From Ottowia beijingensis (GTDB taxonomy: Bacteria; Pseudomonadota; Gammaproteobacteria; Burkholderiales; Burkholderiaceae_C), in the NCBI RefSeq assembly GCF_013423955.1, contig NZ_JACCKX010000001.1, positions 1,798,001 through 1,862,000 on the forward strand: a stretch of 64,000 nt of DNA, read 5' to 3'. The notes beneath the pieces were generated by a model. That model was given only the letters and a program-made list of their open reading frames with translations, was not told where the DNA came from and searched no databases. Below are positions 10,884 through 48,615 of the stretch, in pieces. The first letter of the stretch is position 1. Every line of letters starts with the position of its first letter. Both the position numbers and the translations under genes were made by a program.

Positions 10884-11389
10884 ATGAACACCCCTCCCAG
10901 CCCCTCACCCACTTCGACGCCCACGGCCAGGCCCACATGGTGGACGTGGGCGCCAAGCCTGCCACCCACCGCGTGGCCGTGGCCAGCGGCCGCATCGAGA
11001 TGCTGCCGGCCACGCTGGCGCTGATCGAATCCGGCACGGCGAAGAAGGGCGATGTGCTGGGCATCGCGCGCATCGCCGGCATCATGGCGGCCAAGAAGAC
11101 GAGCGATCTGATTCCGCTGTGCCACCCGCTGGCGCTGAGCCGAGTCGCTATTGATTTCGAAGCTGTCCGCGCCGATGCGGCGGGCGCCGATGCCGTCGTC
11201 TGCACCGCGACCGTGGAGACCACCGGCCCCACCGGCGTGGAGATGGAAGCCCTGACGGCCGTACAGATCGCCCTGCTCACCATCTACGACATGTGCAAGG
11301 CCGCGGATCGCGGCATGACCATCACCGGCGTGCGGCTGCTGGAAAAGCACGGGGGCAAGTCGGGAAGCTATGTCGCGACAGGCACTTAG
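10884..11389 (+). CDS. moaC: MoaC, cyclic pyranopterin monophosphate synthase (hybrid 3' end; frameshift near start)
   Basis: MoaC converts the MoaA product into cPMP in molybdenum-cofactor synthesis. Motifs are clear: [54 protein letters not shown] and [15 protein letters not shown]. The ATG at 10884 reads MNTPP, then the main frame is one base off ([16 protein letters not shown]), so one C seems missing in CCTCCCAG at about 10893. The last 122 bp, from 11268, are island-derived: the original 3' end lies at 48500-48615. The gene remains complete after integration, which is how site-specific elements keep an essential target working. Confidence 0.9.
11268..11301 (+). other. attL core: 34-bp direct repeat inside moaC
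   Basis: The bases from TCGCCCTGCTCACC to ATGTGCAAGGC at 11268-11301 are repeated exactly and in the same orientation at 48500-48533. They encode [11 protein letters not shown] of MoaC. With an integrase gene 190 bp downstream, this is the left attachment site of the island. Confidence 0.85.
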
Positions 11390-11435
11390 CCGTCAAAGCC
11401 TCCATCTCCACGCCGGTGGGGCCAGTGGTTCTCAC
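11388..11435. repeat. Inverted copy of an internal moaC segment
   Basis: Just after the moaC stop, the segment at about 11390-11433 matches the reverse complement of moaC 11215-11259 with about four mismatches (shared core TCCATCTCCACGCCGGTGGG). It makes a long inverted repeat spanning the attL core. Its mismatches to the local moaC suggest it came from another moaC allele, perhaps from an earlier integration event. Confidence 0.7.
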
Positions 11436-11461
11436 CCGTCACCAGAGCGCCAAAAAGGATT

Positions 11462-11480
11462 TTGTCCAACGCTTGTCCAA
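11462..11480. promoter_or_regulatory. Putative integrase arm-binding sites, left end (2 x TTGTCCAA)
   Basis: Two TTGTCCAA octamers at 11462-11469 and 11473-11480 lie 11 bp apart, one helical turn. The same octamer pair with the same 11-bp spacing occurs near the other end (48419 and 48430). Their position between the att core and the integrase start suggests arm-type binding sites. Confidence 0.6.
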
Positions 11481-11491
11481 GTGAGAAGCGC

Positions 11492-12477
11492 ATGGCATCG
11501 ATCAGGCAGCGTGCCGGCAAGTGGCAGGCACGCATCATTCGAAAGGGCTACCCTGAAGAAACGAAGACCTTCGACACGCGCACCCAAGCGCTGCGATGGG
11601 CGCGCGAAGTGGAAAGCGGCATGGACCGCCGGGTCCACCAGAGACACGGTGAGGTCGACGACTGGCTACTGCGGGAGCTGATGGCTCGCTACCTGAGGGA
11701 AGTCACTCCCACCAAGCGCGGCAGCAAGGATGAGGCTATTCGCATCCGCGCATTGCAGCGCTCGCGCCTCGCATCCTTCTCTCTGCATGCGTTGACCCCT
11801 TCCGATATCGCAGATTTTCGTGACCACCGCCTGACGAAGGTCGGCGCAGGCACCGTCATTCGTGATCTGGCCTTGCTGTCGGCCGTGGTCAACCACGCGA
11901 GGCGGGAATGGGGTGCGGCTGGGGCCAATCCCTTTGCTCTGGTGCGACGTCCGAGGGCGCCCGCAGGGCGCACCCGACTGCTCTCGGTGGATGAGCGCAA
12001 CAGGCTGCTCGATGAGCTCAAACCCGTAGGACGACGCAACCCCTGATGTACCCGCTGGTGATTCTGGCGTTGGAAACCGCTATGCGACGTGGCGAGCTGC
12101 TCGCACTTCGCTGGCGGCAGATCGACCTCGATCGCCAGGTCGCTTTTGTGGAAATCTCCAAGAATGGTGACTCTCGTGCTGTGCCACTGTCACGGCGTGC
12201 AGTCGAAGTACTGATGACTCTGGATCGACAGCCAGGCCAAGAACTGGTGTTTCCGATTGGAGCGCACGCACTTCATGCAGCTTTCAAGCGTGCCTGTTTG
12301 CGTGCCAAGCTGGAGGACTTCCATTTCCATGACCTTCGACACTGCGCCGCGACACACTTGTCGACGAAACTGAACAACGTGCTGGAGCTTTCAGCAGTCA
12401 CTGGCCACAGAACACTTCAGATGCTGAAGCGCTACTACCATCCAGACCCTTCTGCATTGGCAGCCAAGCTTGATTGA
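11492..12477 (+). CDS. Tyrosine-type site-specific integrase of the island, frameshifted
   Basis: This phage-type integrase recombines the element into moaC. The N-terminal part (11492-12046) has the SAM-like DNA-binding domain (TPTKRGSKDEAIRIRALQRS, ALTPSDIADFRDHRL). The catalytic part is one frame over (about 12046-12477) and shows the R of ETAMRRGELLALRW, H-x-x-R in HFHDLRHCAATHL, the H of GHRTLQML and the nucleophile in KRYYHPDP. The break is in CAACCCCTGATG at about 12042, where a fifth C would give NPLMYPLVILALETAMRRGE. Restored length is about 328 aa, usual for the family. It lies at the left end next to attL, as expected. Confidence 0.88.
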
Positions 12478-12510
12478 CGGCTTCTTTCATGCATGCTCCT
12501 AGTGTCGGAA

Positions 12511-12801: not shown

Positions 12802-15800
12802 CTACAGAGTCTCTAGCCGCTCCACGAAAACCTGCGTCGGCAACTCATGCCCCTGAATGTCGAGTCTGAACTCCGCCAAAGTTTCGCCAAGGGTCGGCAC
12901 GGGGGCGCGCATGTCGAAAGACGCCAACATGGTATGCCGATGATGGTTCGCCATGGACCAATACGACCAGCCTTGATCGAGCCATACCACGAGCTGCCCA
13001 CCGCCCTGCAGATGTACGCTTAGTCGGCGTCCATGGATCAGATTTCGCCGATCTGTTGACTTGACCGAAGCCTCAATTCCACAGTATTTAAACGCCGCTT
13101 CAAGCGCCTGATCCCTCTGTTTGGTCAGACCCCAATCCGACCACCACGCACCTCTATTGCGCTGAGTTTTGCCCTCGTCTATCAGCATGGTGGCCACTTT
13201 GACTCGAACATCGGGCCATTCTCCTGTAGCTTGGAAATATGACTTAATTGCCGAAACTGCTTCGACCAGTAGAGCGCAGGCAATTGGTGTCGCCAGATAG
13301 CGATCTTCGTACTCGATCGCGGTCGGAACGGCGCCGCTTGGAAACAGCGTCGATATGTCCCCTCGACCAATGTACTTCCAGAAGCGCTCGCCGAAGCCAA
13401 GCCCTTTCCCATTCAGCTCGCTGCTGATTTCGAACGACTGGACGCCCGCGGCATCTGTGGCTGGCAGTGTGATGTCCTCACCCGAAAGGTGTGGGCCAAC
13501 TGTGGGCGCTGAGACGACGATGCCGTCTACCAACTGTCCCCAGTGGCGATCACTACTAGCACACTGCCGCTCGGTAGTAGCCCAAGTCGAATAGGTACGG
13601 TCGGAGCGCTCTATTGTTGCGATGCAGTAGCCATCCTTGGACAACGCCGGCGCAGTACCGGCAATCACTCTCACGGAACCTAGCGTCTCAAGGCTTCGAA
13701 GAACAGCTGCGTTCTCACGCGACAATTGCGTTAGATCACCTTTGGAGGCAACCAGGAACAGTTCTGTGTCATCCCTGACGGATAGTCTGTGCATCAATCG
13801 CCTCAAGGGCGACGCCGGCAAATCCCAATCGGCTGGACTTCCGTTCAAGTAAACAACCAGACGCTGAGCATCCCCACGATTCAACTCTCGCGAAATCGCT
13901 TCATCGATCGGCTGGAACTCCGGCTTGAAGCTGCGCCAAACAGTTGGCACCTGTCATCCAACGCCAGCGACGCGAGCCAATCATCGGACAAGAAGTTCAG
14001 TGCGGCTTGCCGGTCCAGTTCGTCAGCACGATACCTCGTATCAAAGGTCAGGAGACACATCTGACAAGCGCCTTCGCAGCCTGCTTCGCACTGAAGCTTG
14101 CTCCTAGCTATGCGCATGAGCCTGGGGAGTTCAGAAGCAACAAGGCTTGAGTAACCTGCCGAACGAACATCAAAGACTTGAATGACGCGCGCCTTGCGAT
14201 AGAAGTCGTCACGCAGCATCTTGGTGTCGCATCCCAGTTCAGTTTCCTCAACCCCAAGACTCTCAGCCACTGCTCTTCGCAAGGCTACCGCCAAGGTGTA
14301 GGCAACCGCCGAGTCCACCAAAGGCTGACCCTCTACATCGTTGAGCACAATCTCCAGAACGTCAGTCTTGTACTCACGACCAAACCGTATGCCGGCCTTG
14401 ATCTTGAAAGGGTTGTCACTGCCGCCACACATCCAACTGCCTGCAGTCTTGCCCCTCTCAAACGAGCATGCGGACGTTGGAAGACCTTGGGTATCCCATC
14501 GGGGTCTTCTTCGTTCCCCATGGGCGATGCGCGTCCACACTCTAAGCACAGGGCGTAACCTGATCGGTGTTTGCCGGATGAGTGATGAAACACCGAACCC
14601 TGCGGCGTGGCGCGAAAGCGCCCTAGTTCAGGTTTGGGCAGTGGAACCCAGCTTCCGGTTGCAGTGATCCATGGCATCTCGACAGGAACGTACTCTTGCA
14701 ATGTGATGTCGTTATGGGTCTCCGCGAAAATGTCCACGCTAAAGCCCGCTGGCTCTAGGTACTGGAGGTTGTACTGGACGCCATCTTCCAGCTCATGCGC
14801 GCACTCCGGACAAGTCTCGAGCTTTTTGCCAGCACGAAGGTGCCGCTAGCTCCGCACCGACCACATCGCCAAGCTTGTCGCAGGTTCTGCAACTCGCGTG
14901 CCTGATCCAGTGTTGCTGGCGCATGCCAGTTCAGCGTGATGCCTGCTGACTGATACACAAGGCCATCGATGACGACGCTTGCTCCTGGCGCGTACTCCCG
15001 CAGCGCCGTCACCGTGTCTCGACTGGGTAGCTCCCGCCGCTGGAACCTATTGTCCTCCCGGCCAGTCTCAGAATGTTCCCGCTGCCGCTGGATCTCGCGC
15101 GAATCTTTGTTGAGGGTCTCGAAAGTAGTGATATCTGTTGGGAAGCCGTAACCGGGCAACACACCACTCGTGGCCAGCTCACGGAGAAGGTATTCGCCCT
15201 TAAGGCGCTTGAACTGAACCTCAAGGGCACGCATGGGCACCTTGTCTTCAGCGTCCCTGGCGCGGAGCTCGGACATCTGCGCTTCGATAGCGTTCGTCTC
15301 TTCAATCCACCTCATCGCATGCCGCGCCACAGTAAGTCCAGCCTCTGCGACCAAAGCGGTTACGCTGCGACCTTCAAAGACCGTTCGTGCCGTCAGGGAC
15401 CGCACGCCAGTGCACAACTCGGAGTGCTTCGAGTGATCGAAGCACTCGCACCATGCGACGAAGCGCTCCTGGCGACTCTCGCCGCGAGGCAACATCCACC
15501 ACTCCAAAGTCAGCTTGTTGAGTTTTCCTCCCTGCTTTGCATGCGCAAGAAGTTTGCGAGCAGCATTGAGTTGATGTGGCGCTGCACGATCAAGGGGCTG
15601 GACAAGGAAATGCCGGGTGTTCTCAATCGCGTGGTGAAGGGCCACGCGGTGTTATGAAACACGTGCTGGTCGTGCGGGTTGTTTTTGCAGACGGTCAGTG
15701 CGATAGAGCGCGTTTCCGCCCTGCGGCCCGCTCGTCCAGCGCGCTGCAGATAGTTCGCCGGATGGGGAGGAACGTTATTCATCGCGACTATGTTGATGCC

Positions 15801-18800
15801 GCCGATATCCACGCCCATTTCCATGGTGGTCGAACAGCTCATCAAGTTAATCAGACCCTTCTTGAACAAAGCTTCATACTGTTCAAGGCGACTTCCGCTT
15901 TGCTGGGCAGAGTGCTCCACGGCCCGGAAGAACCCAGCACCTTCGATGATGCGCTCGTTCAGATCGGACCATGTTCCTTCGATCCGCGCCTCTTGCAACG
16001 CGGGGTGTTTTGCCAGCCATTCACGCGCGGCTTCAACGCGCTCATCGTCGCTCGCGAAATCTCGCACGATCACGTCGCAAACGGGGACTGTTATTGGGCG
16101 GCACTCCGTCAAGCCCTCGGTAGCAATATTCTGGGGCAGATAAGGAGTGACGCCGCGCAACGTGACATCCAGAACCCTGCGTGTGACGGGACAAAACCAC
16201 GCTTTAGTGATGTTCTGATAGGCAACATCAGACAAATCAAGATACCTACCCTGGTCGCCCCCGATCTGAAGCAAACCGGATGTCAAGGTCAAGTCCTCCC
16301 AGGCAGCCAGCAGCAGGGCATTGATACGATCACCTCCCGTAACTGACTGAGGATCAAGCTTCAATACATGGGCAAGAATTCTGACTAGGCGACTATTTCT
16401 CTTGCCCTTGGAAACTTTTGGCCATTTGATCAGCTTGTGCGTTTGCTTTTCAACGGAGGTCGGCGCCAGGATCTGCCTCGGGAACACTCGTTCTGCCCCC
16501 AACGTTGCCAGCTGGATGGAAGCTGTATTGCCCAATGCTGTCGAACGAAAAAGTCCAACGCAATTTTGAGAAAGGAGCGCCACTCGTCCAGGCTGAAGCC
16601 GGCTTGCTCGACAGCCACTCGCCTCGTCGTCACCTGGCCCAGCTTTGGGTACTGCACTGAAACTAAGCCAAGCGTTTCCAAACTGTTCTGACGTTTCGGG
16701 CGTCGACCGAACTCACGGCACAAGAGAATTCTCGCCAGTAGCTCAGAGCCCTTGCTACTCTTGAACGCCTGATCCGCATCCGCGTAGGCAGTGCGAATCC
16801 AGTGACTGATGTCAGCAGACTGCGACGACAGCCAAGCCACCATCTCTTCGTGCCCAACGGGCTTGCCTGCAGAGAGCTGAGCTAATTTTGATTCCTTTTC
16901 CTCGATCTGCGTCAGCAGCAAGGTCCGCAGCTGACCGTCTTCCTGAGGAACGAGTCGCCGGACCTGCTCAATCTCCGCTCTGAGGTTTTGCCTCTCACCG
17001 AGGGACGATGCCGTGTCTGACACAAGCTTTCGATATACCGCACCACGCAGTGCATTTCGCTCAGCGTCTTGCTGCAGCTTTGCTGCGATACGAGCCGTGC
17101 CCTGCCGGCTGTCTGTAAAGGTGATCATCCGCCTGCCTCTACGAGGCATGTCCAGCGGCGTGTCCCCATCCGGGCAATACTCCAGCAGTGTTGGAATCAC
17201 GGTGCCTAGATAGAAGGGTGCACCGAGTCTTGGTTTGCGAAACTGACGGGCTGGCATGTCATGGCCGCTACACTCCGGGCATCTCAGAACCAAGCTCTGA
17301 TCTTCGTCGGCCGAGACATCCTGGATGCAGACGGCAATGGCTTCTTCAGATGCTTCTGAAACGACCTCCATCGAGTCACGCTTGAGCAGCACGGAAGGCC
17401 TGGGCGTCAGACCGTTGCAGATCAGCACGTGTGTTCGATTCGAGGGTCCGTCCAAGATCCCTGTTTCCGAGCCCTCCTCCACCTCGTCGCTCGGCTCATC
17501 TGGATCTCGATCCAACATGAACTCGTCCGAATCTTCTTCAATCGGTACTGCCAGCCGCTGGCTCAAACCCGTCTGCACCAGATCGGCACTGAGAAACGTC
17601 TGATTGCAGTCATTGCACGAAACCAGCGGAAAGACTGGCACACCGCATGCGCAGTGTCTTCGTTCTTCCGTGTATACGGCGCCATAAGCCCAGTCGGGGT
17701 GGTCCAGTTCGGTGCTTCGCTTGGCATCGCACTGTGGATCTGGACACGCCCACATTCCATTCAATGTGTTGTGAAACACATGCATTCGGAGCGGAAGGAA
17801 TGGCTGGGCGGTTCGTCCTTCGCCCGCTACTGCACTCGTGAGGAGATCAAGCCACTTGAGTGGATCACGATAGTGCGCATCCGCTCCAGCGGACCCGAGC
17901 GCCGTCGCGACTTCCGACAGCAGCTGGAAATCACGGCCACCTTGTGTCGGTACAAACAACGACCTCAGGCGCCTGCCTATTGGATGAGCGGAGAGCCGCT
18001 TGTACAGGTCGTCGGAGCCCTGACTGGAATCCCGCAACGCATCGATTGTTTGGGCTACCCCTGTGTCCCCTGTGGTCTCAATTATTGGAATTTCCCTTTC
18101 ACCATAAACCACGGTCACCCGGTCTGAGCCGACTCCCGCCAAGCTTGCGAGGAACTCCTGCAGTTGCCGGCGGGCCGGTTCGTCGCTGGCCCCGATAGTG
18201 GCAGACGTAGCGACAAAGTGCACCTGGTCCGCAGATGTGCCAAAGGCGTGGAGTACGCGTCGGAGCAGTAAGGCCAGTTCGGCAGCCTGCGATCCAATGT
18301 AGTTATGAGCCTCGTCCAGAACGATCCAGCCCAACTTGCCCTTGGACTTCTCCAGAATCGGTGCATCCTGCGCTCGGACCAGCATGTACTCCAACATCGT
18401 TGGGTTCGTGACCAGGATCTCCGGTGGGCTGTCCCTCAAGGTCGCTCGGTCATGCACTTCATTCGGAGCGTCGCGATACCGATCAGCCTTCGCTTCCTCT
18501 GGCGTCATGCCGTTGTATAGGCAGAAGCGAAGATCGCCTCCAAAAGGTCCCGTCCATGCCCGCAGGCGCTCACGTTGCGACTGAATCAAGGCGTTGAGTG
18601 GATACAAGAAGATCGCCTGGACGCCAGCTCCCTTAGCTCCATCTGCTTTTCTCTGGGCAATGCTGCTCAGCACCGGAACCATGAAGCACTCGGTCTTGCC
18701 CGAGCCGGTGCCGCTGGTGACCATCACTGATTGGCATCCAGGCCCAAGGAGAGCGCACCAGGCCGCCAGTTGATGCGAGTAGGGCTTTGCATCTGCCGGG

Positions 18801-19093
18801 AACCGATAGTCCTTAGCTGACTCTCCCCAAGGCTTGTCCATGGCCTTCACGACATCGGGGTGCAACAGCTTGCCGGACAGCTGAGACATCGTTTCATCCG
18901 TCGTCTTCCAACCGAACGTCGCCTCGAATACAGGGTCAGCCAGAAAGCAGCCGGGCGCGCCATATCCCCGAGAAAACAATGACAACAGATGCCGACGCAA
19001 GGGCTCATTCGAGAAGCCGAGGATGCCCACGGTGGCTCGTGAGGCACGCGTGCTTAGCTCAGGAAGAAGTGACGAGAAGAACTCGGATTTCAT
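12802..19093 (-). CDS. druE: DruE-like large DUF1998 helicase (Druantia type III), multiply frameshifted
   Basis: The span encodes about 2,095 aa, the usual size of DruE, in six collinear frame segments on the minus strand (16430-19093, 15510-16583, to 14755, to about 14440, to 13950, then 12802). The N-terminal helicase has Walker A SVMVTSGTGSGKTECFMVP, DEAH in IVLDEAHNYIGSQAAEL and SAT in HFVATSATIGA. Motif VI is NYLQRAGRAGRRAETRS. A zinc-ribbon-like WRCGRCG..CPEC and the DUF1998/MZB cluster CEAGCEGACQMCLLTFDTRY follow. Breaks fall in G5 (about 16505), near 15535, in A5 (about 14828), in G4 (about 14445) and near 13945. Druantia uses DruE as its common core in anti-phage defence; how it works is not settled. 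DISARM DrmA/B-type helicases were the alternative, but no methylase or PLD gene is present. Confidence 0.75.
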
Positions 19094-19210: not shown

Positions 19211-20115
19211 TCAGACCGGTATGGTCTGCTGCTCAAGATCACGATAGTAGTTGGCCTCGAACTCCGCCGGTGGCAGGTAGTCGAGTGCGGCCATCAGCCG
19301 ATGGTGGTTGAACCAGGCCACCCATTCAAGCGTGGCCATCTCCACCGCCTCTGTCGTCTTCCAGGGTCCTTTGCGGTGGATGACCTCGGCCTTGTACAAG
19401 CCGTTGATGGTCTCGGCCAGCGCGTTGTCGTAGCTGTCGCCCCTGCTGCCCACCGAGGGTTCGATCCCCGCTTCGGCCAAGCGCTCGCTGTAGCGAATGC
19501 TGACGTACTGCGCACCCCTGTCGGAGTGATGAATGAGTTGCCCCCGCGCTCGCCTTGGCGGGCGTACAAGGCCTGCTCCAGCGCATCGAGCACGAAGTCG
19601 GTGGTCATCGAACTGCTGACACGCCAGCCCACGATGCGCCGGGCGAACACGTCAATGACGAAGGCCACGTACAGCCAACCCTGCCAGGTCGAGACGTACG
19701 TGAAGTCGGAAACCCACAGTTGGTTGGGCCGCTCGGCCTGGAACTGGCGGTTGACCCGATCCAGTGGGCACGGCGCCTTCGGATCACTGATCGTCGTACG
19801 CAACGCCTTGCCGCGCATGACCCCGCGCAGGCCCAGGCGTCCCATCAGGCGTTCGACGGTGCAGCGCGCCACCGTGATGCCCTCGCGCAGCATCTGGCGC
19901 CAGACCTTGCGCGCCCCATAAACGCCGTGATTGGCCTGCCAGATGCGTTGGATGTGGGGCATCAGGTGATCATCGCGCCTGGCGCGCTGACTTCGTCTAC
20001 TTGGCTCTCGCTGACGCTGAACATGCCGCCAGTAACCTGAAGGGGCAATCTGCAGCACCCGGCAGATCGACTCGACCCCATGGGCATGGCGGTGCTCATC
20101 GACGAGTGCGTACAT
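19211..20115 (-). CDS. IS3-family transposase OrfB (DDE integrase core), frameshifted
   Basis: OrfB is the rve-domain catalytic subunit. Visible DDE residues: Asp in LWVSDFTYVSTWQGW, Asp in IHHSDRGAQY and Glu in SYDNALAETINGLYKAEVI. The frame is lost at about 19545 in a GGGGG run and recovers in the next frame, which ends at 19211, so one G is probably missing. Its ATG at 20115 overlaps the orfA stop (TGATG). Confidence 0.88.
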
Positions 20116-20434
20116 CACTTCAGTCGGCGGTCGAGTTCCGCCTGGGCGAAAAAGCACTGGCCAGCTTCAGGATCTCGTTGGCCTTGCGCAGTTCCCGATT
20201 CTCTCGCTCCAGGTCCTTGATGCGCTGTGCTTCGGCCGTGGTGACTCCTTCGCGCTGGCCTGTGTCGCGTTCATGCCGGCGTACCCAACTGCGCAGCGTC
20301 TCAGCGGTGCAGCCGATCTTCACTGCTATCGATTCAATGGCAGCCCACTGCGAGGCGTATTCCGATTGATGCTCCATCACCATCCGCACAGCACGCTCGC
20401 GTACCTCGGGCGAATACTTCACTGACTTTCTCAT
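20115..20434 (-). CDS. IS3-family transposase OrfA (HTH, leucine-zipper)
   Basis: OrfA begins [19 protein letters not shown] and has the HTH_28-type segment [20 protein letters not shown] and the coiled-coil [20 protein letters not shown]. As written, the frame ends early with SPRRNSTAD at about 20120; the expected tail [12 protein letters not shown] is in the next frame and stops at 20115, implying one missing T in a TTTTT run at about 20148. Confidence 0.88.
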
Positions 20435-33591: not shown

Positions 33592-33815
33592 CGAGTGTCT
33601 GGTGCGTGCCCAAAGCAACGGAAAGGCATTTGTCTCGAGAAGTCCGTACTGCATACGGTCATGGAGCCATGAAGGACCAACACATCCAAAAAGCTCGGCG
33701 TTTGGCCTCAATAGTGACGATTATTGCGCCAATTTTTTGCCCATGGGCTACGGGGCAGGCTGGCCACTGCGGACTGTGTCATCGCACATTGGCGAGCAAC
33801 CGCTGAGTGCGATAG

Positions 33816-37079: not shown

Positions 37080-37097
37080 CGATCCTCCGTCCGGGGT

Positions 37098-37799: not shown

Positions 37800-39062
37800 G
37801 GGCCTTCTCGAGCAAGCACATGCCCGCGCACGTCGATCTGGCCGGTGACGGCGGCGGAGATCAAGGCGGAACGACGCTCTTGGAGAAGGAGAACAGCTTC
37901 ACCTGCCATGTCTGCCAAGCGCTCGATTCGATCAACCTCCGTCCGAAGGTATTGCGCGATTGCTTGCTGCTCAGCCAGCGGAGGCACTAGCGCTTTGAAC
38001 TCGACTGCGTGGCTGATATTGAACTGCTCCTGAGCAGCGCCGTACTGAACCACCTCAACCTGATATCTCACTACTTTGCTGTTCATCAGATAGCAAAGCC
38101 AGTCCGAGTCGAAGTGGCCTTTTCTTATCAGCATGACGGAGGCGCAGTTGCCGCCTTCGCATTCAGGCGGCACGACCGCAGTCACGCCGGGTGCCCCCAC
38201 TCACTGTCAGCAAGTCCCCAGCTCGCAGATACGTCTTGGACTGCCGCGCGCTGTCGTCAACGGTGATGCGTCGAGCGTTCTCGTAATCAATGGTGCCCTC
38301 GCGGATGTCTCCACCGTAGATGAACGGTAGGCCTTCTTGAGAAACATAGTCCGACGGATTGATCACGATCCCAACCGTCATACTTGGCGTTAGGCGCTTG
38401 AGGGCGAGCACTCCCCAATGCGCCGGCACCTGCCCCAACCACTCCACCCCGAATCCTTCATCGGCACCGACGGATCAAGCCCCTTGGTGACGGCGTGCGA
38501 GATGAGGGCCTGGCGCTTTTCCTTCAGCAGCGCGATCAGCTTTTCCTGCTCGGCCACCAGCGCGTCGATCTTGGCGGTTTCGCGGTCGAGGAAGGTGGCG
38601 ATGGCCGACTGCTCCTCAGCTGCTGGCAGGGGTATTCGCAGGTTCCCAATAATCTCTACAGCCAGCCCCGGCTGGGCTGCGGCAACGGAGTACTGGCCAA
38701 GGTTCATCGCGCGAAGCAGCTCCCCAAGCCAGCGCACTTGGACAAATACATGCGGTGTCACAACGACAGCATGCTCAGATGCCCAAAACCTACCTTCCGC
38801 ATAATTGATGTTGCCGCAGAGCGCTCCTTGCCGCCCGATCAGCGCAAAGAGACCATCGTGTGTGAACGCATTGGTAAATCCGCGCAGGCCGTTCCCTCCA
38901 TACACGGGGTAGTTGCCAATTTCGTCTATCGAATCTGCAGTGATGGCATCACCGCTTCGCATGCTCACCAGTCGTTTCAGCGCGACGACATCCCAATGCG
39001 CCGGCACCTCCCCAGCCACTCCACCCCACTGTCCTTGTAGGCTGGGTACTTGGGAAGCTCAT
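37796..39062 (-). CDS. hsdS: Type I restriction specificity subunit HsdS, frameshifted
   Basis: HsdS sets the DNA recognition site. Two target-recognition domains are visible: the first around [20 protein letters not shown] to [20 protein letters not shown], followed by the central helix [20 protein letters not shown]. The second runs from [20 protein letters not shown] to [20 protein letters not shown], with a matching tail helix. At least three indels split it (about 39040, 38440 and 38200). The start at 39062 overlaps the hsdM stop (ATGA) and reads MSFP; with one base restored it would continue [20 protein letters not shown]. Confidence 0.86.
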
Positions 39063-40807
39063 GCCGACAGCCCCTTGATCATCTCCAGGATGCGGTCGGT
39101 GGTTGCTTTCAGGTCGTCATCGATCTCGGCCAGCGGCCGGGGCGGCTTGAAGACGTAGAAGTGCCGGTTGAACGGAATCTCGTAACCCACTCGGGTCTTG
39201 TCCGGGTCGATCCAGGCATCGGGCGCGTGCGGCAGCACCTCGCGCTCGAAGTATTCGGCCACGTCCTCCTTGTACGGCACGTTCTCGGTGTCGCGCAGCT
39301 TGCTGTCAGGCTGGGGCTTGCCTTTTTGCCTGCCACGCGTGCCCAGCACGATATTTCCGGCTTCGTCGCGCAGCGGCCGCTCCACGGTGATGCTGTGGTA
39401 GCCGAAGTCCTCGTTGTCGAAGATGCGGCTGATGGGCGTGCCGTCTTCGTCCCTGGCTTCCTGGAAGCTGCCAAAGAGCCGGGTGATGCGCTCGATGTGG
39501 GCGTCGGACAGCTCCTTGCGCTTGGAGCCCAGGCTCTTGCGCATCTTCTGCCACATGCCGCTGGCGTCGATCAATTGCACCTTGCCGCGCCGCTCGGCGG
39601 GTTTCTTGTTGGACAGAATCCAGACGTAGGTGGCGATGCCGGTGTTGTAGAACATGTCGGTGGGCAGGCCGACGATGGCTTCCAGCAGGTCGTTTTCCAG
39701 CACGTAGCGGCGAATCTCGCTCTCGCCCGAGCCGGCGCCGCCGGTGAACAGCGGCGAGCCGTTGAGCACGATGCCAAAGCGGCTGCCGCCTTCCTTGAGC
39801 GGGCGCATCTTGCTGATCAGGTGCAGCAGAAACAGCATGGAGCCGTCGGAGATGCGCGGCAGGCCGGGACCGAAGCGGCCGGCAAAGCCCTGGGTTTCGT
39901 GCTCGCGGCGGACTTCCTTCTCGACTTTCTTCCATTCCACGCCGAAGGGCGGGTTGGAGAGCATGTAGTCGAAGTGCTCGCCGTGGTGGCCGTCGTCGCT
40001 CAAGGTGTTGCCGAAGACGATGTTCTCCACCTTCTGGCCCTTGATCAGCATGTCGGCCTTGCAGATGGCGTAGGACTCGGGGTTGAGCTCCTGGCCGTAG
40101 ACGTTCAGGCTGGCGCGGGGGTTCAGCTCGGCCAGGTATTCGCCGGCCACGCTGAGCATGCCACCCGTTCCCGCCGTCGGGTCGTACAGGGTGCGCACCA
40201 CGCCGGGTTTGGACAGTGCATCGCTGTCTTCGACGAACAGCAGGTTCACCATCAGGCGGATGACCTCGCGCGGGGTGAAGTGCTCGCCGGCGGTTTCGTT
40301 GGAGAGTTCGGCGAACTTGCGGATCAGCTCCTCGAACACGGTGCCCATGTCGGCGTTGCTGACCCGGCTGGGGTGCAGGTCGATCTGGCAGAACTTCTCG
40401 GTGACCTGGTAGAGCAGGCCGGCCTTGGACAGGCGTTCGACCTGGGTCTGGAACTCGAAGCGCTCGAAGATGTCGCGCACTTCCGAAGAGAAGCCCTGGA
40501 TGTAGGTAAGCAGGTTTTGCTCGACGTTGCTCGGGTCGCCCAGCAGCTTCTTGAGATCGAGCGGGGATTGGTTGAAGAACGGCAGGCCGGTCTTGCGCTG
40601 CAGGAACGGGCCGGGGTTGACGCCCAGCTTTTGCTTGGCGGCCAGCTCGGCCAGCACGGCGTCCTTGGTGGGTTCGAGCACGCAGTCGAGACGGCGCAGC
40701 ACGGTGAACGGCAGGATGACCTTGCCGTAGTCGGACTGCTTGTAATCGCCGCGAAGCAGGTCGGCAACCGACCAGATGAAGGAGGACAGGGCTGCTTGGG
40801 TGGCCAT
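39059..40807 (-). CDS. hsdM: Type I modification methyltransferase HsdM
   Basis: HsdM (582 aa) is the N6-adenine methyltransferase subunit that pairs with HsdS. It has the HsdM N-terminal helical domain ([20 protein letters not shown]), SAM-binding motif I in [19 protein letters not shown] and catalytic motif IV in [16 protein letters not shown]. The frame is intact. The ATG at 40807 is chosen over the in-frame start at 40840 because [12 protein letters not shown] is the usual family N-terminus. It is the first gene of the minus-strand operon hsdM-hsdS-unknown-hsdR. Confidence 0.93.
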
Positions 40808-41017
40808 GTGACGGAGTGTATCGGCGCAGCCCGCTGGCAAAGCCTGGCCGACAGCCCCATCTCGGCTGCCGTCTCAGTCTAGATTTTTCAGTCACATATT
40901 ACTGAGGTGAGCCTCCAAAGCTCACCACACCCTGACGACCTCAGCAGCCCGGCCATCCCCAGCGGATCGCCGGGCTGTCTGCCGTCAGGGTTTTCCATCT
41001 GACTGAAGGAATCTTGC

Positions 41018-41362
41018 ATGCACACCTGTCCCAACTGCCAATCCACCCGCGTTGTCGAACGCCACCTCGGGCGCGACACCGGCGGCGCCATCGGCTCCGT
41101 GGCCGGCGCTGCCAGCGGCATCGCTGCAGCCCTGCGCGGCGCCAGCGTGGGCGCCGAAGCCGGCACCACCGTCGGCTTCATCGCCGGCCCCGCCGGTGCC
41201 TCCGTGGGCGCCATCGCCGGCGCCTGCATCGGCGGCCTCATCGGCGGCGCCATCGGCCACGAATTCGGCCGCGAAGTCGGCAACACCATCGACACCCACT
41301 GGCTCGACAGCCACGCCTGCGTGGTCTGTGGCCACCACTTCAGTCCGCGGCTGGCTGTCTGA
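41018..41362 (+). CDS. Glycine-zipper protein with terminal CxxC motifs
   Basis: This 114-aa protein has a CxxC at each end (HTCPNCQSTRV and HACVVCGHHF) around a Gly/Ala-rich core with glycine-zipper repeats (ASVGAIAGACIGGLIGGAIG). The core could form membrane hairpins; the CxxC pairs could bind zinc. It leads a same-strand run with DUF932, YqaJ and RDF-like genes. Its function is unknown. Confidence 0.7.
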   Translation: MHTCPNCQSTRVVERHLGRDTGGAIGSVAGAASGIAAALRGASVGAEAGTTVGFIAGPAGASVGAIAGACIGGLIGGAIGHEFGREVGNTIDTHWLDSHACVVCGHHFSPRLAV

Positions 41363-41407
41363 GCTGTCGATCCAGCTGTCCCTTTCTCTTTGATCTTGTT
41401 TTGCGTG

Positions 41408-41427
41408 GGCCCCTCGGGGCCTTTTTT
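41408..41427 (+). terminator. Rho-independent terminator-like hairpin
   Basis: GGCCCC-TC-GGGGCC is followed directly by six T residues. It lies between the glycine-zipper gene and the DUF932 gene, so it may end or attenuate the first transcript. Confidence 0.65.
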
Positions 41428-41452
41428 CATGTCTGTTTGAAGGAGCATTCCC

Positions 41453-42417
41453 ATGTCTGTTGCATTGGCGACCATCACCCCTGCCGAAACCCCTGGCAAA
41501 CCCTGGGCAGCAACCTGCCCCCGAAGCAACCCATCGAGGCCTGGGCACGGGCTGCCGGCATGGACTGGCAGATCCGTGAAACCCCGGTGCGCTTTCTCAG
41601 CGAGCAGGCCGGCGCGCTCGGTGCCATCCAGACCTTCGACGAACAGAAGGTGCTCTACCGCAGCGACACCCAGCTGCCCCTGTCCGTGGTGAGCGCGCGC
41701 TACCAGGTGGTGCAACCCCGTGAAGTGCTGGAGTTCTACCGCGACCTGGTGGCCGTCTCCGGCTACGAGCTGGAAACCGCCGGCGTGCTCAAGGCCGGGC
41801 GCAGGTTCTGGGCCCTGGCCCGCACCGGGCAGGAGACCGTGCTGAAGGGGCGCGACCTGGTCCGCGGCTACCTGCTGCTGGCCAGCTCCTGCGATGGCAG
41901 CCTGGCCACTACCGCCACCCCGACCACCGTGCGCGTGGTGTGCCAGAACACCCTCGGCATCGCCCTGAACGGCGCCACCGGGGCCGTCAAGGTGCCGCAC
42001 TCGACCCGCTTCGACGCCCAGGCCGTCAAGCAACAGCTGGGTGTGGCCGTCTCCCAGTGGGACAGCTTCATGTACCGCATGAAGACCCTGGCCGAGCGCA
42101 AGGTCAAGCGCCACGAGGCGATGAACTACTTCCTCAAGGTGCTGTGCCATGCCGATGGCCCGGGCGATGGTCGCATGAAGCTCAGCAACGAGCGGGCCCT
42201 GAAGAAGGTGCAGGCCCTGTACGACGGCCGCGGGCGCGGTGCCGAAGTCGGCGCGTCCCAGGACACCGCCTGGGGCCTGCTGTGCGCCATCACCGAGTTC
42301 GTCGACCACGAACGGCGTGCCCGCAGCCCCGAGTACCGGCTCGACAGCGCCTGGTTCGGCCCCGGTGCCCAGCTCAAGCAGCGGGCGCTGGATCAGGCCC
42401 TGGCCATGGTGGCCTGA
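41453..42417 (+). CDS. DUF932 domain protein, frameshifted near start
   Basis: The body reads RETPVRFLSEQAGALGAIQT, VLYRSDTQLPLSVVSARYQV, RVVCQNTLGIALNG and HEAMNYFLKVL, which fits the DUF932 family of phages and plasmids; its function is unknown. The ATG at 41453 (MSVALATITPAETP) is followed by a one-base shift in ACCCCTGG at about 41499; a fifth C gives TPWQTLGSNLPPKQPIEAW. GAAGGAG lies before the ATG. Restored length is about 321 aa. It is regularly found beside recombination genes such as the next one. Confidence 0.8.
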
Positions 42418-42442
42418 GCCCATTGTTTCAACCTTGTCACAG

Positions 42443-42474
42443 GCCCCGGCATCGCAAGGCGCCGGGGCTTTCTT
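42443..42474 (+). terminator. Terminator-like hairpin after the DUF932 gene
   Basis: GCCCCGGC at 42443-42450 pairs with GCCGGGGC at 42461-42468, followed by TTTCTT. The weak T tract makes it a possible attenuator between DUF932 and yqaJ. Confidence 0.5.
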
Positions 42475-42493
42475 CCATCTGAAGGTGTGAATC

Positions 42494-43536
42494 ATGAATC
42501 CCTTGATCGAATCGACGCCGGCCTCCAGTCCGGCGCCCAAACCCCGACCGGCCCTGCGCCTGGTCAAGACCCAGCAACTCAGCCGTGAGGACTGGCTGCA
42601 GGTGCGCCAGCAGGGCATCGGCAGCTCGGACGCCGCCGCGGCCGTGGGCCTGAGCCCGTACAAGTCGCCCCTGCAGCTGTGGGCCGAGAAGACCGGGCAG
42701 GCGCGGTTTCCCGAGCCGGATCCCAAGGACGACCGCCACCCCATGTACTGGGGCACCTTGCTGGAACCCATCGTGGCCGCGCACTACACCCGGCGCACCG
42801 GTCGGCGCGTGCGCCGCATCAACGCGGTGCTGCAACACCCCGCCACCCCTGGATGCTGGCCAACGTGGACCGCGAGGTCATGGGGTCACCGGAGGTGCAG
42901 CTTCTGGAGTGCAAGACCGCCGGCATCCATGGCGCCCGACTGTGGAAGGACGGGGTACCGGAGTACGTGCAGTTGCAGGTCATGCACCAGCTGGCCGTCA
43001 CGGGCAAGGCGGCCTGTGACGTGGCGGTGCTGATCGGCGGGCAGGAGCTGCGCATTCACCGCATCGAGCGCGATGAGGCGGTGATCGAGCGGCTGATCGC
43101 GCTGGAGGCGGCGTTCTGGCAGCGGGTAGAGAGCCGGCAGGCGCCACCGGCGGACGGTTCGGACTCGGCCGAGGCCGCCTTGCGGGCGCTGTACCCGCAG
43201 GACGACGGGCAGACGCTGGACTTCACGCAGGACACGGAGATGGGCAGCACCTTCTCCGACCTGCAGGCCATCCGCCAGCGCATCCAGGCCTGCGCGCTGG
43301 AGGAAGCGCGGCTGCGCCAGCGCATCGAGGAACGCATGGGCGAGGCGTCCAAGGCGGTGTTCGAGACCGGCGAGGTGAGCTGGCGCCGGGCCAGGGACAG
43401 CGTGGTGCTGGACACCAGGCAGCTGCTGGCCGAGCAGCCGCAGCTGATGGAGAGCTATGGCAAGCGCAGGCCGGGCAGCCGGCGGTTTCTGATGACAGCT
43501 GCCGAATCAACCGAATCAACCGAACCAACTGAATGA
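42494..43536 (+). CDS. YqaJ-family recombination exonuclease, frameshifted
   Basis: This is a lambda-exonuclease-like enzyme for homologous recombination on mobile DNA. The YqaJ domain shows RQQGIGSSDAAAAVGLSPYK, MYWGTLLEPIVAAHYTRRTG, NVDREVMG and the catalytic ECKTAGIHGARLW. A helical C-terminal region follows. A break at about 42848 (CCACCCCTGGATG) is repaired by one C to give TPWMLANVDREV. Restored length is about 347 aa. The 3' end has three near-repeats of GAATCAACC coding ESTESTEPTE. Confidence 0.85.
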
Positions 43537-43549
43537 AGGAGAAACAGCC

Positions 43550-44535
43550 ATGTTGAAAGGATTGGCCATGACCCCGCCCGTGATCGGGCGGATTTCGATT
43601 GGGCGCGTGGTGGAGCGAAACGGCAAGCGCCTGCCGGAGAAGGACGATGAGTTCACCCTGACCAGCCAGGTGCAGGGTCTCGACGGTTGGGTGCGGCATC
43701 CGCTGGATGCGGCGCTGCGCCAGGACGGGGCCAAGCTGCGCAGCATTCCGGTGCGGCTGGTGTTCGGCGCGCCGGAGCTGAACCTGCGGGCGAGCTTCAC
43801 CTTGTTCGACCGGAGCACCGGCCGGCCCTGGTGCGTGGGCGATGGGGAGCGCTGCAAGCGGGTGACCGAGCAAGGCATCGAGAGTTTGCCGTGTCCGACG
43901 CCGGCGGCCTGCCCCTGGGGCAGGAGGGGCGCTGCAAGCCGTATGGGCGGCTGCATGTGCGGGTCATGGCGCCGGAAGTAGAAGCAGGTGCAGGAGCGGG
44001 CGCAGGAGAGGACGACGGGCTGGGAACCTTTGTGTTCCGAACCACGGGCTTCAACAGCATCCGCACGCTGGCAGCGCGCCTGGCCTACTTCAAGGCGGTG
44101 TCGGGCGGGATGCTGGCGTCCTTGCCGCTGACGCTGCGCCTGAGGGGCAAGTCGACGACGATGTCGCACCGCACGCCGATCTACTACGTGGATCTGACGA
44201 CACCTGCGGGCATGAGCCTGGAGCAGGCGATCGTGCAGGCCGGCGAGGAGGATGAACGGCGCAAGCAGCTGGGGTTTGACCAGTGGGCGCTGGATGAGGC
44301 CGCTCGTGAAGGCTATGCGGCCGGGGCGTTCGAGGAGTCGGAAGAAGAAGGGGCGGCCGTGGTGGAGGAGTTCTACCCGGACGCCGATGGGCAGGAGACC
44401 CAGGCCGATGAAGCCTCGAGGGCCACGTTGGAAGCCAAGCTGGAGCGCAGGCTGCGGCGGCAGGGGAGCGGGTCACAGGAGATCCATGAGGTGCGTGCAA
44501 GGCCCTCAGAGTCTGCTGCCAGGTCTCGGTTCTAG
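43550..44535 (+). CDS. Recombination directionality factor-like protein (often annotated hydrolase or metal-binding), frameshifted
   Basis: The protein begins MLKGLAMTPPVIGRISIGRV and continues LPEKDDEFTLTSQVQG, LRSIPVRLVFGAPELNLRAS, FVFRTTGFNSIRTLAARLAY and MSHRTPIYYVDLTTPAGMSL. I associate this family with DUF932 and YqaJ genes on integrative elements, where relatives carry the labels hydrolase/metal-binding or recombination directionality factor. One break at about 43916 (TGCCCCTGGGGC) is repaired by one C. Restored length is about 328 aa with an acidic C-terminus. It starts 13 bp after yqaJ. Confidence 0.65.
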
Positions 44536-44860: not shown

Positions 44861-45466
44861 CTAGTGCAGAGCAACTACGCCGTCGTCTACCAAGGGCAGA
44901 TAGTCCGACAGCTGAATGGTCCGGCTACCCCATCGGAACCGCACCTCTGTGATGGAGCCCGGCTTCGCCCCCAGCTGCTTCAAGAGAGCTCCAAGCGAGT
45001 CAAGACATCCCGCTCCCAGGGATCGCGCACCTTCGATACCAGCATGGGCGCAGTCATTGCTTTCCCTCGGTTTGTTTTTGCCTGCTTTCCTCTGAGGCGT
45101 CGGCGACAACTCCTTGCCCTGAGCAGCCTGCTGTGGTGCCGGCTGATGCGGCTCCTCCTCTATTTCGGGCTGCGCGCTGTGGCGAATGCAACCCACGTAG
45201 GAAAGCCGCTGCGTTGTGCAGTCCGGCCTTACGGCCATAAAGCATTCGCGGCCAAAGCCGCTCTTGGCTACAGCAATGTGATCAATCGCCGCAGTCGCGT
45301 CGTGAAGTGGATGGTGCTTGAGCAGGCTTTGTAGCTCCTGCCTGTCGACGTCGCTCACCGTCTCGCCCACCTTGTATCTGTGAAGCATTTCAGAAAAGTG
45401 CAGACGGGCTTTGTTCTGACTGGTGAAGGTCTTGTGGTCAAGTACCACTGGAATGGCAGCTGGCAT
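44861..45466 (-). CDS. DUF3223 (DCL-like) domain protein
   Basis: This 201-aa protein has an N-terminal domain, RLHFSEMLHRYKVGETVSD, LLKHHPLHDATAAIDHIAVA and FMAVRPDCTTQRLSYVGCI, that matches the DUF3223 family, related to the plant DCL protein of rRNA maturation. A basic, Pro/Gln-rich linker and a short C-terminal domain (SLGALLKQLGAKPGSITEVR) follow. The frame is intact. It is divergent from the relaxase across an AT-rich gap. The role on a mobile element is unknown. Confidence 0.72.
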   Translation of the reverse strand: MPAAIPVVLDHKTFTSQNKARLHFSEMLHRYKVGETVSDVDRQELQSLLKHHPLHDATAAIDHIAVAKSGFGRECFMAVRPDCTTQRLSYVGCIRHSAQPEIEEEPHQPAPQQAAQGKELSPTPQRKAGKNKPRESNDCAHAGIEGARSLGAGCLDSLGALLKQLGAKPGSITEVRFRWGSRTIQLSDYLPLVDDGVVALH

Positions 45467-45749
45467 GTCAAACTCCTTTTAAATATAACAATATGGAACC
45501 GAAAGGCAAAGACCTCTCATATGTATATAAAAGTATATTTTGAAATCAGTCTGCATTCCTGCCAATCAATACGAAGAAGATATATTCAATGAAATAATTA
45601 TTCATAACCAAATGCTATGGGAAATGGATTCATCGATAAGAGCTCAGATTCTTGTTCTACAGAGAGTAGAAATGGATGCGCACTTACCGTTTCTCATCAA
45701 TCCCCACTCAAAGTCCCTTAAAGAGGCCTTATTCATTTGGAGTACACGA
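45467..45749. other. AT-rich divergent intergenic region
   Basis: The stretch is clearly poorer in GC than the rest of the window (for example TTTTAAATATAACAATATGG near 45477 and TATGTATATAAAAGTATATT near 45519). It probably carries promoters for the DUF3223 gene and the relaxase, and could include the transfer origin. An open frame from 45540 runs into the relaxase, but its first 70 codons do not look like the family. Confidence 0.5.
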
Positions 45750-46426
45750 ATGGCGACATTTCACATGAGCATCAAGAGCGGAAAGCGGGGACAGGCCCTG
45801 CCACATTCAGACTACATTGCACGCATAGGAAGGTTTGGAAGAAAGCCGGGAGCCGATCACCTGGTGGCCCAGGAATCAGGGAATCTTCCCTTTTGGGCGC
45901 ACGGCTCACCAAGAACATTCTGGCGCACTGCAGACCGCTATGAGCGTCTCAACGGAGCAGCATATCGAGAAATAGAGCTTGCTCTACCCAGGGAGCTAAG
46001 CAACGAACAAAATATAGAGCTGGTAAAGAATTTGGTTCAGAGCGTCATCGGCGAAAAACCTACCAATGGGCTATTCATTCCCCATCAGCGGCCTTGGAGG
46101 GTGGACCGCAGCCTCATGTTCATTTGATGTTTTCTGACAGGGTAACCGACGGCATCGATAGGTTGCCAGAGGCTCACTTCAGGCGATACAACGCGCGCGA
46201 CCCAGGATTGGGCGGATGCAGAAAAACAAGTGGCGGCAAGGATCGTAACGCTCTCACCAAAGAGGTCAGTGCGTTGCGTGCAGAGTGTGCACGACTGATA
46301 AATTGTCACTTAGAGCAAAATGGTCACGAAAGTCGTGTAGATCACAGGTCTCACATTCAGCGCGGGATAGCTGATGCTCCAGAAGTACACCTCGGGCCCC
46401 GGCGTGTTCGTCTTCTAATCAAATAA
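45750..46426 (+). CDS. MobA/MobL family relaxase, frameshifted
   Basis: Relaxases of this family nick oriT and lead plasmid or element DNA into the recipient. The ATG at 45750 gives the family start MATFHMSIKSGKRGQALPHS followed by DYIARIGRFG. Further motifs are FWRTADRYERLNGAAYREIE, ALPRELSNEQNIELVKNLVQ, the His motif GGPQPHVHLMFSDRV and GCRKTSGGKDRNAL, with ESRVDHRSHIQRGI near the end. The frame shifts at about 46083 (CTATTCATTCCCC). Restored length is about 225 aa, short but usual for this subgroup. No coupling protein or type IV secretion genes are present, so the element needs a helper. Confidence 0.83.
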
Positions 46427-46440: not shown

Positions 46441-46470
46441 GCTACATCTGCTACGCGTAGCAGATGTAGC
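46441..46470. repeat. Perfect 30-bp palindrome between relaxase and DUF3987 gene
   Basis: GCTACATCTGCTACG at 46441-46455 is followed at once by its exact reverse complement, with no loop. A shorter palindrome, TATGACGTCATA, lies at 46480-46491. Both sit between the convergent relaxase and DUF3987 genes. There is no T tract, so it is not a standard terminator; a protein-binding or oriT-related site is possible. Confidence 0.8.
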
Positions 46471-46604
46471 CGGGTCGCTTATGACGTCATAGATTTCTTT
46501 GAAACACTACGGCAGGGCTCTTCCTAGAGCAATGTAACTGCTCAGAATCGTAATGCCCGAAAAACAACGAGGAGACAGCAGTGCATGCGCACTGGAAGGG
46601 TGCA

Positions 46605-48174
46605 CTACAGGAGGTCATATTTGGAGCTATCCATGAGGCCGAAAGCTCCTGTGTGCGCTTTAGCCTGAGGTTTCCTTCTGTTGATATTTGCTTCTCTATC
46701 GCTTATTTCCTTTACCACCTGCGGATCCAACCGAATAAAATCCCAATCACGCCTTAGGTAGCAGAGTTCCACGCCATTCGACAGAGAGTGAAAGCTTATG
46801 ATGTTATTCTCCCGGAGATTTTCCAGCGCGCGCTCCAGCCTCCCGTTGGATTTTGCGCGCATAAACACGGGACCATATTGCCTCAACTCACGAACAGTCC
46901 ACGTTGCCCTAGCCGGATAATTATCTCTCTTTTTCCTCAGCCACTTGGAAAGAGTATTTGCATCTTCATAATCCTCCACAAAAACCCCAAATGATCCAAA
47001 CAGCCGAAGATGCTCGCCCTTGAAATCTTCAACCCATGCTATCGCCTTTTGAGGATATCCTCTCCAATCTCGTCGCCGCTTGATTCAAGAAGATGAAACA
47101 AGCCAGCCAAACGAGTCACATGCTCACCCGATTTGGAAACCCAGTCCCTGATAGCCCCGTACTTTGCATCCACAAGAGATCCGCTTTCGCTCTTGTTCAC
47201 ATAGGAATCCAGCTCGTCTTGGGCAGATTCAGAAAAAACAACTTTCTCCGACTTCTTTCCCTTTGATTGTCGCGCGAGACTCTTCTGCCAATTCACGCAG
47301 TCTCGCTAGAAAGTTATCTAGACCATCCCTGTTACCCAATGCCACTCCGGAAGTGCGCGTACCTTGAGTGGATTCTGGATTGATGACTAGGCAGCGTGAC
47401 AAGAAACCCGAACTACGGGCCATCTCATCCTTGGATTGACAGAACTGCTTGAAAGCTTTGGATTGAACCATGACAGAAATCGTCAAGGATGTATCAATCG
47501 TCTCTATCAACGTCGTTCGACTTCTTTCCACACGCGCCATCTCCCCGCCCCACAGGAGACAGAGGGTTTCGAGATCCCTCATTGTTTGACCCGTCAGATG
47601 CCTAGCCCCTTCTGGAGAAAACACTCCCCAGCGGGCCATTGCTGCATACCTTCCAGCAATGCACGCGGACTGATGTCGTCATAGAACAGTCGGGGCTGCG
47701 CCGGCTTCACGGGCCGGCCTGCCAACACCCGCTCCAGCTGTCGCTGTAGCTCCTGGATAGATTCCGGCCTCCTCACCGCAGCCCGCCGAATCTCTGCTTT
47801 TAGGCCTTTGACTTGCTCGTTCCAAGCAATGACCTGAGCTGCATTCTGATGCTGAGCACCGTCGTGCTCTGCCATCCAACGGGCCTCCAACTCTTGGAGA
47901 TCTCTCCTGAAAATTGCATCGACCGTCGACTTGCGCTCGCCGGACTCAGCGACCACAAAATGAAGAGTCCCAGCGGTGTTCCAGGCAGGCCTGGACGCTG
48001 AACCCGAGCGATTGATTGCCCAGCGACAGCCAGTGCGCCCAGTGCAGCACACTCTACAAGGGGCCGCGGTGCACCAGTCGCCTTCACAACATCGTCTACG
48101 GCCCTTCCAAGGGTATCTGGATACCGATCAGGCTTCACTTGGTATCTGAATGATGGTTGCATGTTCCTGTTCAT
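46605..48174 (-). CDS. DUF3987 (YfjI-like) protein, multiply frameshifted
   Basis: Read in five collinear frame pieces, the protein starts MNRNMQPSFRYQVKPDRYPD and LVECAALGALAVAGQSIARV. It continues with LHFVVAESGERKSTVDAIFR (a Walker A-like GERKST), GVFSPEGARHLTGQTMRDLE, RVERSRTTLIETIDTSLTIS, SGEHVTRLAGLFHLLE and TWTVRELRQYG. This order fits DUF3987, a primase/helicase-like family common on integrative mobilisable elements. Restored length is about 522 aa. Breaks are near 48000, 47640, 47290 and 47040. It probably serves element replication, which is inferred. Confidence 0.75.
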
Positions 48175-48400
48175 TTAGGTGGCTCGGACCTTGGAAGCAC
48201 TCAGCCGGTTCAAGGAGGTCGATGCTCGATGGCATCATGAATTAGCTCGGTCGCAGCCATGGAGCCAAGGAGCCGCTGGATCACTATCCGTGGCGGGCCA
48301 AGTCGAAGAATGCCTCTTCGCCAGTGAACTATGTGCTGCGCCAGCCGAGAAAGGGCGCTTGACCGCTACCGAGGTCATCCTGCAGCGGCGCAACGTACAA

Positions 48401-48437
48401 TTGTCGGACAAGGCTTCCTTGTCCAATTTTTGTCCAA
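48401..48437. promoter_or_regulatory. Putative integrase arm-binding sites, right end
   Basis: TTGTCCAA occurs at 48419-48426 and 48430-48437, again 11 bp apart, and a palindromic form TTGTCGGACAA lies at 48401-48411. The set matches the left-end pair and lies 63 bp inside the attR core. The rest of 48175-48400 holds no recognisable gene. Confidence 0.6.
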
Positions 48438-48496
48438 CCCGCGTTGGGTCGATCCTTGAATTTTGGCTGTTTGAAATGGCGGCTTCCCTCTGGTGC

Positions 48497-48615
48497 AGGT
48501 CGCCCTGCTCACCATCTACGACATGTGCAAGGCGGCGGACCGTGGCATGGTGATGACCGGCGTGCGCTTGCTGGAGAAGCACGGCGGCAAGTCGGGCAGC
48601 TACGTGGCTGGGTGA
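48497..48615 (+). pseudogene. Displaced original 3' end of moaC
   Basis: The segment reads [20 protein letters not shown] and then [19 protein letters not shown] with a TGA stop at 48613-48615. It has no start and no 5' part, because the island entered upstream. The codon differences from the 3' end now used at 11302-11389 show that the island brought its own version. Confidence 0.9.
48500..48533 (+). other. attR core: 34-bp direct repeat
   Basis: Exact copy, in the same orientation, of 11268-11301. It marks the right boundary of the island. Past it the sequence is chromosomal: the displaced moaC end and then the O-antigen ligase gene. Confidence 0.85.

Follow-up and report, generated by a model that had tools for sequence, protein, structure and literature searches.

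How can an element settle within the coding sequence of moaC, a molybdenum-cofactor gene, and leave a complete gene behind? The question is raised by a 64-kb stretch of the Ottowia beijingensis genome (contig NZ_JACCKX010000001.1, positions 1,798,001 to 1,862,000; hereafter the window), in which an earlier note had pointed to an exact 34-bp direct repeat within moaC as the borders of a mobilisable island. The repeat is exact and its two copies lie where the note had placed them, at 11268-11301 and 48500-48533; neither strand of the window has a further copy, and the chance expectation for a 34-bp repeat in 64 kb is about 2e-10. The segment from 11268 to 48533 is very probably an integrative genomic island placed in moaC by its own tyrosine integrase, and the sequence comparisons lend good support to a site-specific integration at the moaC 3' end that regenerates the gene. 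The features at the two ends are given below, with the basis of each in brackets; attL and attR are the left and right attachment sites.

10904-11389, plus strand: moaC, regenerated from the native 5' part, the core and an island-supplied 3' end, stop codon at 11387-11389 (PF01967 positions 1-136 of 136, translation)
11268-11301, plus strand: attL core, the left copy of the 34-bp repeat (sequence comparison)
11389-11429, minus strand: moaC 11219-11259 in inverted copy, with identity at 37 of 41 bases (sequence comparison)
11462-12477, plus strand: tyrosine integrase, split into the frames 11462-12046 and 12046-12477 (Int_N below cutoff; Phage_integrase PF00589, E 7e-28, in the second frame)
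11463-11478, plus strand: arm-type repeat pair TGTCC-N6-TGTCC before the integrase (pattern search)
48420-48435, plus strand: arm-type repeat pair TGTCC-N6-TGTCC before attR (pattern search)
48500-48533, plus strand: attR core, the right copy of the 34-bp repeat (sequence comparison)
48534-48615, plus strand: displaced native moaC 3' end (85-92% identical to the moaC ends of seven congeners)

Both junctions read as the earlier note had proposed. At the left one, the frame at 10904-11389 encodes a complete MoaC domain whose 3' end comes from the island; at the right one, the repeat lacks a moaC 5' part and continues through the displaced native end toward a gene with PglL_A and Wzy_C_2 domains. 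Over the 88 bases 3' of the core, 62 positions are identical between the left and right copies. The guanine-plus-cytosine (GC) content, about 0.70-0.74 before the island's left end, is down to 0.55-0.60 directly within it. We compared the locus with seven of 20 congener genomes (the window's own not counted), all of which have an uninterrupted moaC site, with genes for an M48 peptidase, MoaC and a ligase-like protein in consecutive order, and a moaC end that resembles the window's right copy. The note had predicted this order as BepA, moaC and O-antigen ligase; the contiguity was borne out, but the last gene looks, from its domains, like a PglL-type protein glycosylation ligase. The island's left end matched the congeners solely through a short moaC-like inverted piece (five of seven) and never through the integrase. 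In one congener (G412; G and L numbers are our handles for genomes and loci) the ligase-like gene is inverted. A tRNA target was rejected, as the 64-kb window has no tRNA gene. The target is unusual, as the note had held, in not being a tRNA gene, but many islands occupy protein-coding genes and moaC itself is reused by one integrase clade.

The evidence for this reuse comes from relatives of the integrase, with which the window protein can be aligned across its length when they are intact. With a threshold of E 1e-20, its C-terminal part matched 36 of 299 family genomes (its own included). The three best relatives after the window itself (57-58% identity) all lie directly behind an intact moaC, and further relatives, from 46-53% identity downward, have no adjoining moaC. 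Among the best 80 of 470 loci in a wider scan of contigs, moaC, or its end at a contig start, directly precedes a full-length integrase in 13 cases (L035-L041, L043, L044, L048-L051); moaC likewise precedes a partial integrase at L104. The hosts include Comamonadaceae, Cupriavidus pauculus, Cupriavidus basilensis, Limnohabitans and Methylotenera. A tree of 84 rows, selected from 116 extracted integrases, places the window protein in a clade of 24 rows with support of 100/100, 21 of them at moaC. Among the three remaining rows, L045 and L046 follow another coding gene and no target gene was recognised for L042; the TGTCC arm pair is present in all three. The gene before the integrase in L045 and L046 (before position 10001) is presumably pntB, and these loci suggest a switch of target with the arms kept. 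At six other loci checked, a tRNA gene precedes the integrase in three (L053, L055 and L062). Across betaproteobacteria, moaC is, on this phylogenetic evidence, a recurrent landing site of one integrase clade.

The islands of this clade also share a signature at their ends. Within the window, the pattern TGTCC-N6-TGTCC is confined to two positions, 11463 and 48420, one at each end of the island. In 479,527 bp the exact pair occurs 32 times, of which 31 are at island ends and all in the orientation of the integrase; the sole pair off an island end lies 222 bp past the attR of L044. Of 21 islands, 16 have two or more TGTCC units in the 110 bp that precede the integrase, compared with 1.2% of random stretches; in the 200 bp that precede attR, counting either strand, 12 of 12 have them, compared with 5.5% expected from random stretches. 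We aligned 16 attL/attR pairs, and the geometry of the relatives is the same as that of the window. Where the two copies clearly differ, their identity is centered on the MoaC codons for LLTIYDMCK. Relative to the Tyr codon, the span of identity is -17 to +16 in the window, -30 to +16 in L051 and G216 (-30 being the limit of the comparison), -27 to +19 in L036, -15 to +28 in L044 and -30 to +10 in G254, which fits a crossover inside about -15 to +10 around this codon. The integrase would bind the arm pairs on both sides and a core of about 25 bp, with the integration point in moaC codons for an 11-residue stretch. Recombination between the attP of the island and the attB of the chromosome by the island's tyrosine integrase would then let the moaC 3' end borne on attP take the place of the native one. 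We propose that MoaC function is kept because the incoming end substitutes for the native end.

How often the site is occupied was estimated with the moaC 3' segment as query, which found a match in 381 of 399 family genomes and more than one match, read by eye, in 17 (the window's own included). The other 16 were examined singly and islands were counted only when an integrase was present, giving moaC islands in 10 of the 399 genomes. Eight carry an integrase of the window's clade (the window, G254, G216, G397, G049, G350, G349 and G308). In the remaining two (G011 and G111; L196-L199) a distant integrase lies at the opposite end of the island, reversed, and the two ends are identical from -4 onward. 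Judged from these two genomes, a second integrase lineage targets the same moaC 3' end. A search for this second integrase at E 1e-60 returned none of 399 genomes of the order, a result of little weight, as no known carrier was evident among those searched. In G308, three further moaC 3' ends lie on another contig (L203, G308:C25; about 3210, 6234 and 8263), the first adjoining a fragment of another integrase; their succession suggests stacked insertions. Left uncounted were G173 (a weak second match 57 kb off, with no clade integrase in the stretches examined), G087 and G342 (weak second matches about 1 kb from moaC) and G260, G313 and G317 (matches on separate contigs). Also uncounted was G247 (L204, G247:C29), where a 3-kb segment with neither integrase nor arm pair lies between two moaC 3' ends.

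Cases such as these bear on one alternative, that the second moaC end arose by chance duplication or belongs to a paralogue and that no site-specific integration took place. Second moaC 3' matches with no integrase detected, as in G247 and G087, are what it would lead one to expect, and the earlier note had named a duplicated moaC without an island as the observation that would count against integration. No such duplication was present in the seven congeners; in the wider family there are the weak second matches of G087 and G342 and the segment of G247. At the window, the ends of the repeat coincide with the arm repeats and the integrase, and relatives share this layout. We rejected a chance repeat or paralogue, to which we attach almost no credence, on the exact two-copy repeat, the empty site in the congeners and the arm pairs at both ends.

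Several observations weigh against integration as we describe it. The stretch of the island from 41 to 44.5 kb has a GC content like that of the flanks, so the island may be a mosaic. At five of the 21 left ends the arm unit is single or degenerate. In L040, G247 and G349 the two ends cease to be identical within the proposed crossover stretch, G349 sharing just an 11-bp run, and these breaks require later conversion or a different recombination partner. Finally, the integrase is split over two frames, which bears on its present activity. The relaxase domain described below, the Druantia protein DruE, the restriction subunit HsdR and other island proteins change frame as well. These changes could mean that the island integrated as described and then decayed into an immobile relic, having lost integrase, relaxase and several cargo genes by frameshift. 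We consider this possible but doubtful. The usual moaC ATG at 10884, in frame in the congeners, does not share the reading frame of the remaining gene in the window, and frames also break outside the island: in the ligase-like gene, which takes two or three frames compared with the congeners, and in a frame 96-98% identical to that of the congener G146. Furthermore, the assembly (4,286,847 bases, 5.2% contaminated, with the window on contig 1) has 4 contigs and is 89.25% complete, as uncorrected indels would give. Because frames break outside the island too, indel errors in the assembly are likely the main cause of the broken frames. Beside the site, at 52251-53236, a stretch encoding a Uma2-like protein is 96-98% identical to G146 and the adjoining genes about 65-80%, a disparity that points to a recent exchange.

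Does the borrowed end work as a gene end? We counted differences between island-borne and displaced ends over about 30 codons from the core onward in 14 of the 16 pairs, leaving out G349, for its 11-bp shared run, and G308, whose ends lie on two contigs. Of 264 synonymous sites 64 differ between the copies, and of 990 nonsynonymous sites 12 do, a ratio of nonsynonymous to synonymous differences (pN/pS) of 0.05, which indicates that both copies of the moaC end evolved as working ends. Island-supplied moaC ends thus look to be under selection for function. The core encodes a stretch conserved among solved MoaC structures, which we take to hold catalytic residues.

Close behind the regenerated stop codon, the inverted fragment at 11389-11429 retains readable codons with the meaning that they have in moaC 11219-11259. 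Inverted moaC copies were present in three of 29 moaC 3' flanks, 23 of which adjoin a counted integrase, and on this count we rejected the fragment as a family-wide feature. The copies are 40 bp long and 90% identical in the window, 68 bp and 94% in G011 and 53 bp and 96% in G111; in each case the source of the copy is a moaC piece that lies just left of the core or reaches into it. A pattern search of the 399 family genomes, whose spacing limit excludes G011, gave five matches: the window, G111 and three with letters unlike moaC. The three islands with inverted copies (the window and G011 and G111, at L197 and L199) span two distant integrase lineages. The fragment might be functional, base-pairing with the moaC transcript or with att DNA in single-stranded form into a long hairpin that would control read-through into the island, moaC expression once the island has integrated, or recombination. 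The regions with an inverted copy do fold more strongly than their shuffles (z of -6, -16 and -12, against -3.6 to 1.3 in six flanks lacking one), as any inverted repeat would, and we regard such a function as improbable. Alternatively, the fragment may be left over from an aberrant excision in which the left arm of attB was captured.

Between its ends, the island carries the following genes, assigned on the basis given in brackets.

12802-19093, minus strand: Druantia type III DruE, broken into pieces over at least five frames (PADLOC DruE3 model)
19294-20157, minus strand: transposase (domains HTH_21 and rve), separating the pieces of DruE from those of DruH (Pfam)
21080-23968, minus strand: DruH of Druantia type III, in pieces, two matched frames (PADLOC DruH3 model)
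25394-30245, plus strand: metabolic genes for a TctC receptor, an AMP-binding enzyme, a citrate-synthase-like protein and two short-chain dehydrogenases, some split (Pfam)
30475-32366, minus strand: pieces of a candidate LmuB, probably an SMC-like ATPase (visual inspection, no Pfam match)
32302-33711, minus strand: Cap4-type nuclease, LmuA-like (Pfam, PADLOC)
33816-40840, minus strand: type I restriction-modification, with HsdR pieces, HsdS and HsdM (Pfam, PADLOC)
41014-44535, plus strand: DUF932, YqaJ and Gp3-like proteins, the latter two split between frames (Pfam)
44861-45466, minus strand: DUF3223 protein resembling HamC2 (Pfam, PADLOC)
45540-46426, plus strand: MobA/MobL relaxase domain in two frames, 45540-46127 and 46094-46426 (profile positions 17-97 and 115-217 of 224)
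47229-48052, minus strand: DUF3987 protein in two frames (Pfam)

By its gene content, this is a defence island with Druantia type III, Lamassu-like and type I restriction-modification genes. DruE and DruH lie side by side, in broken frames and with the transposase between them. For Lamassu, the LmuA model was matched, and the adjoining pieces of a probable SMC-like ATPase are, by inspection, a candidate LmuB. The cargo may, by homology, protect the host against phages. In the 13 sister islands we surveyed 93 open reading frames (ORFs), for which 25 of 41 Pfam families and 25 of 79 PADLOC families were listed; 13 of the ORFs are integrases. Of the proteins in the window, only the integrase is broadly common to other moaC islands; the type I M subunit matches four other moaC-island loci at 26-29% and the S subunit one. 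Twenty of the 93 sister proteins were checked singly with PADLOC, and 15 had no match at E 1e-25. G254 gave matches to ZorD of Zorya I and to a type I restriction enzyme, L036 to PD-Lambda-2 and to a dCTPase, and G349 to a type II methyltransferase. The PADLOC tally of all 93 also includes ZorA, ZorB and ZorC among the families listed. Thus, recognisable defence genes are present in at least four of the 14 clade islands, the window included, and the islands of the clade, as compared here, mostly share their arm repeats and differ in cargo.

The earlier note had set the integrase at one end of the island and the MobA/MobL relaxase at the other. The integrase is indeed at the left end and the relaxase toward the right, but both are split and the DUF3987 gene is the recognisable gene nearest the right end. 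The relaxase domain, nearly whole, is divided between two frames, and the island is at most a putative mobilisable element; transfer between cells, perhaps with MobA/MobL and the conjugation machine of another element, is plausible. No type IV secretion or coupling proteins were found among the 40 larger window ORFs searched in Pfam, nor MobA/MobL among the Pfam families listed for the 13 sister islands. The YqaJ and Gp3-like genes, a VapE-like gene in one sister island and matches to the primase C-terminal domain in two of the 93 sister proteins could instead point to a prophage or phage satellite. We judge this origin quite unlikely, because the same 40 ORFs included no capsid, terminase or tail families and no moaC end was present in the best 80 of 560 viral loci with related integrases. 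The integrases of phage and plasmid collections, moreover, reached about 43% identity among the matches listed, far from the clade, with one further plasmid record in the 60-80% band. A plasmid search with the DNA of the island's left end gave two records, both through moaC itself. One 36.6-kb viral contig (L209) opens with an integrase (207-1193) that shares 51% identity with the clade query; the part of this contig examined contains no moaC end.

As a kind, the gene-restoring integrative island is already known. In PMC12884075, tRNA/tmRNA genes and intergenic sequence account for 56.6% of the island database. The tyrosine-integrase islands of Islander and TIGER (PMC4383910, PMC12884075) likewise have an integrase beside att, a restored split gene and a displaced far fragment; here, in contrast, the target is the middle-to-3' part of the protein-coding moaC and the arm signature is the island's own. 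Integrative and mobilisable elements resemble the island in pairing an integrase with a relaxase domain, no conjugation machine having been found here, but the relaxase in the window is split between frames and none was among the families listed for sister islands. Such elements are the subject of a review, PMC5704250. PMC10111431 reports an integrase clade that similarly returns to coding genes; those are prophage late genes, whereas here a gene for cofactor synthesis is targeted and most of the cargo differs. The cargo proteins are homologous to those of the PADLOC models for Druantia type III, Lamassu and type I restriction-modification, although several frames are broken here and the function of the systems in this island is putative. 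In a table of PMC7019866, moaC is a boundary gene of one Cupriavidus metallidurans island. We found no printed report of moaC as an attachment site in the literature searched, island databases being outside its scope. As far as we searched, the target, the arm signature and the breadth of use appear new in print.

These results add a recurrent attachment site in a molybdenum-cofactor gene, used by one integrase clade and reached by a second lineage. The short core and the TGTCC-N6-TGTCC arms define a specific, testable attP/attB pair, and the island-borne gene ends provide a natural measurement of selection on a borrowed part of a gene. The moaC site is also a place to look for defence genes.

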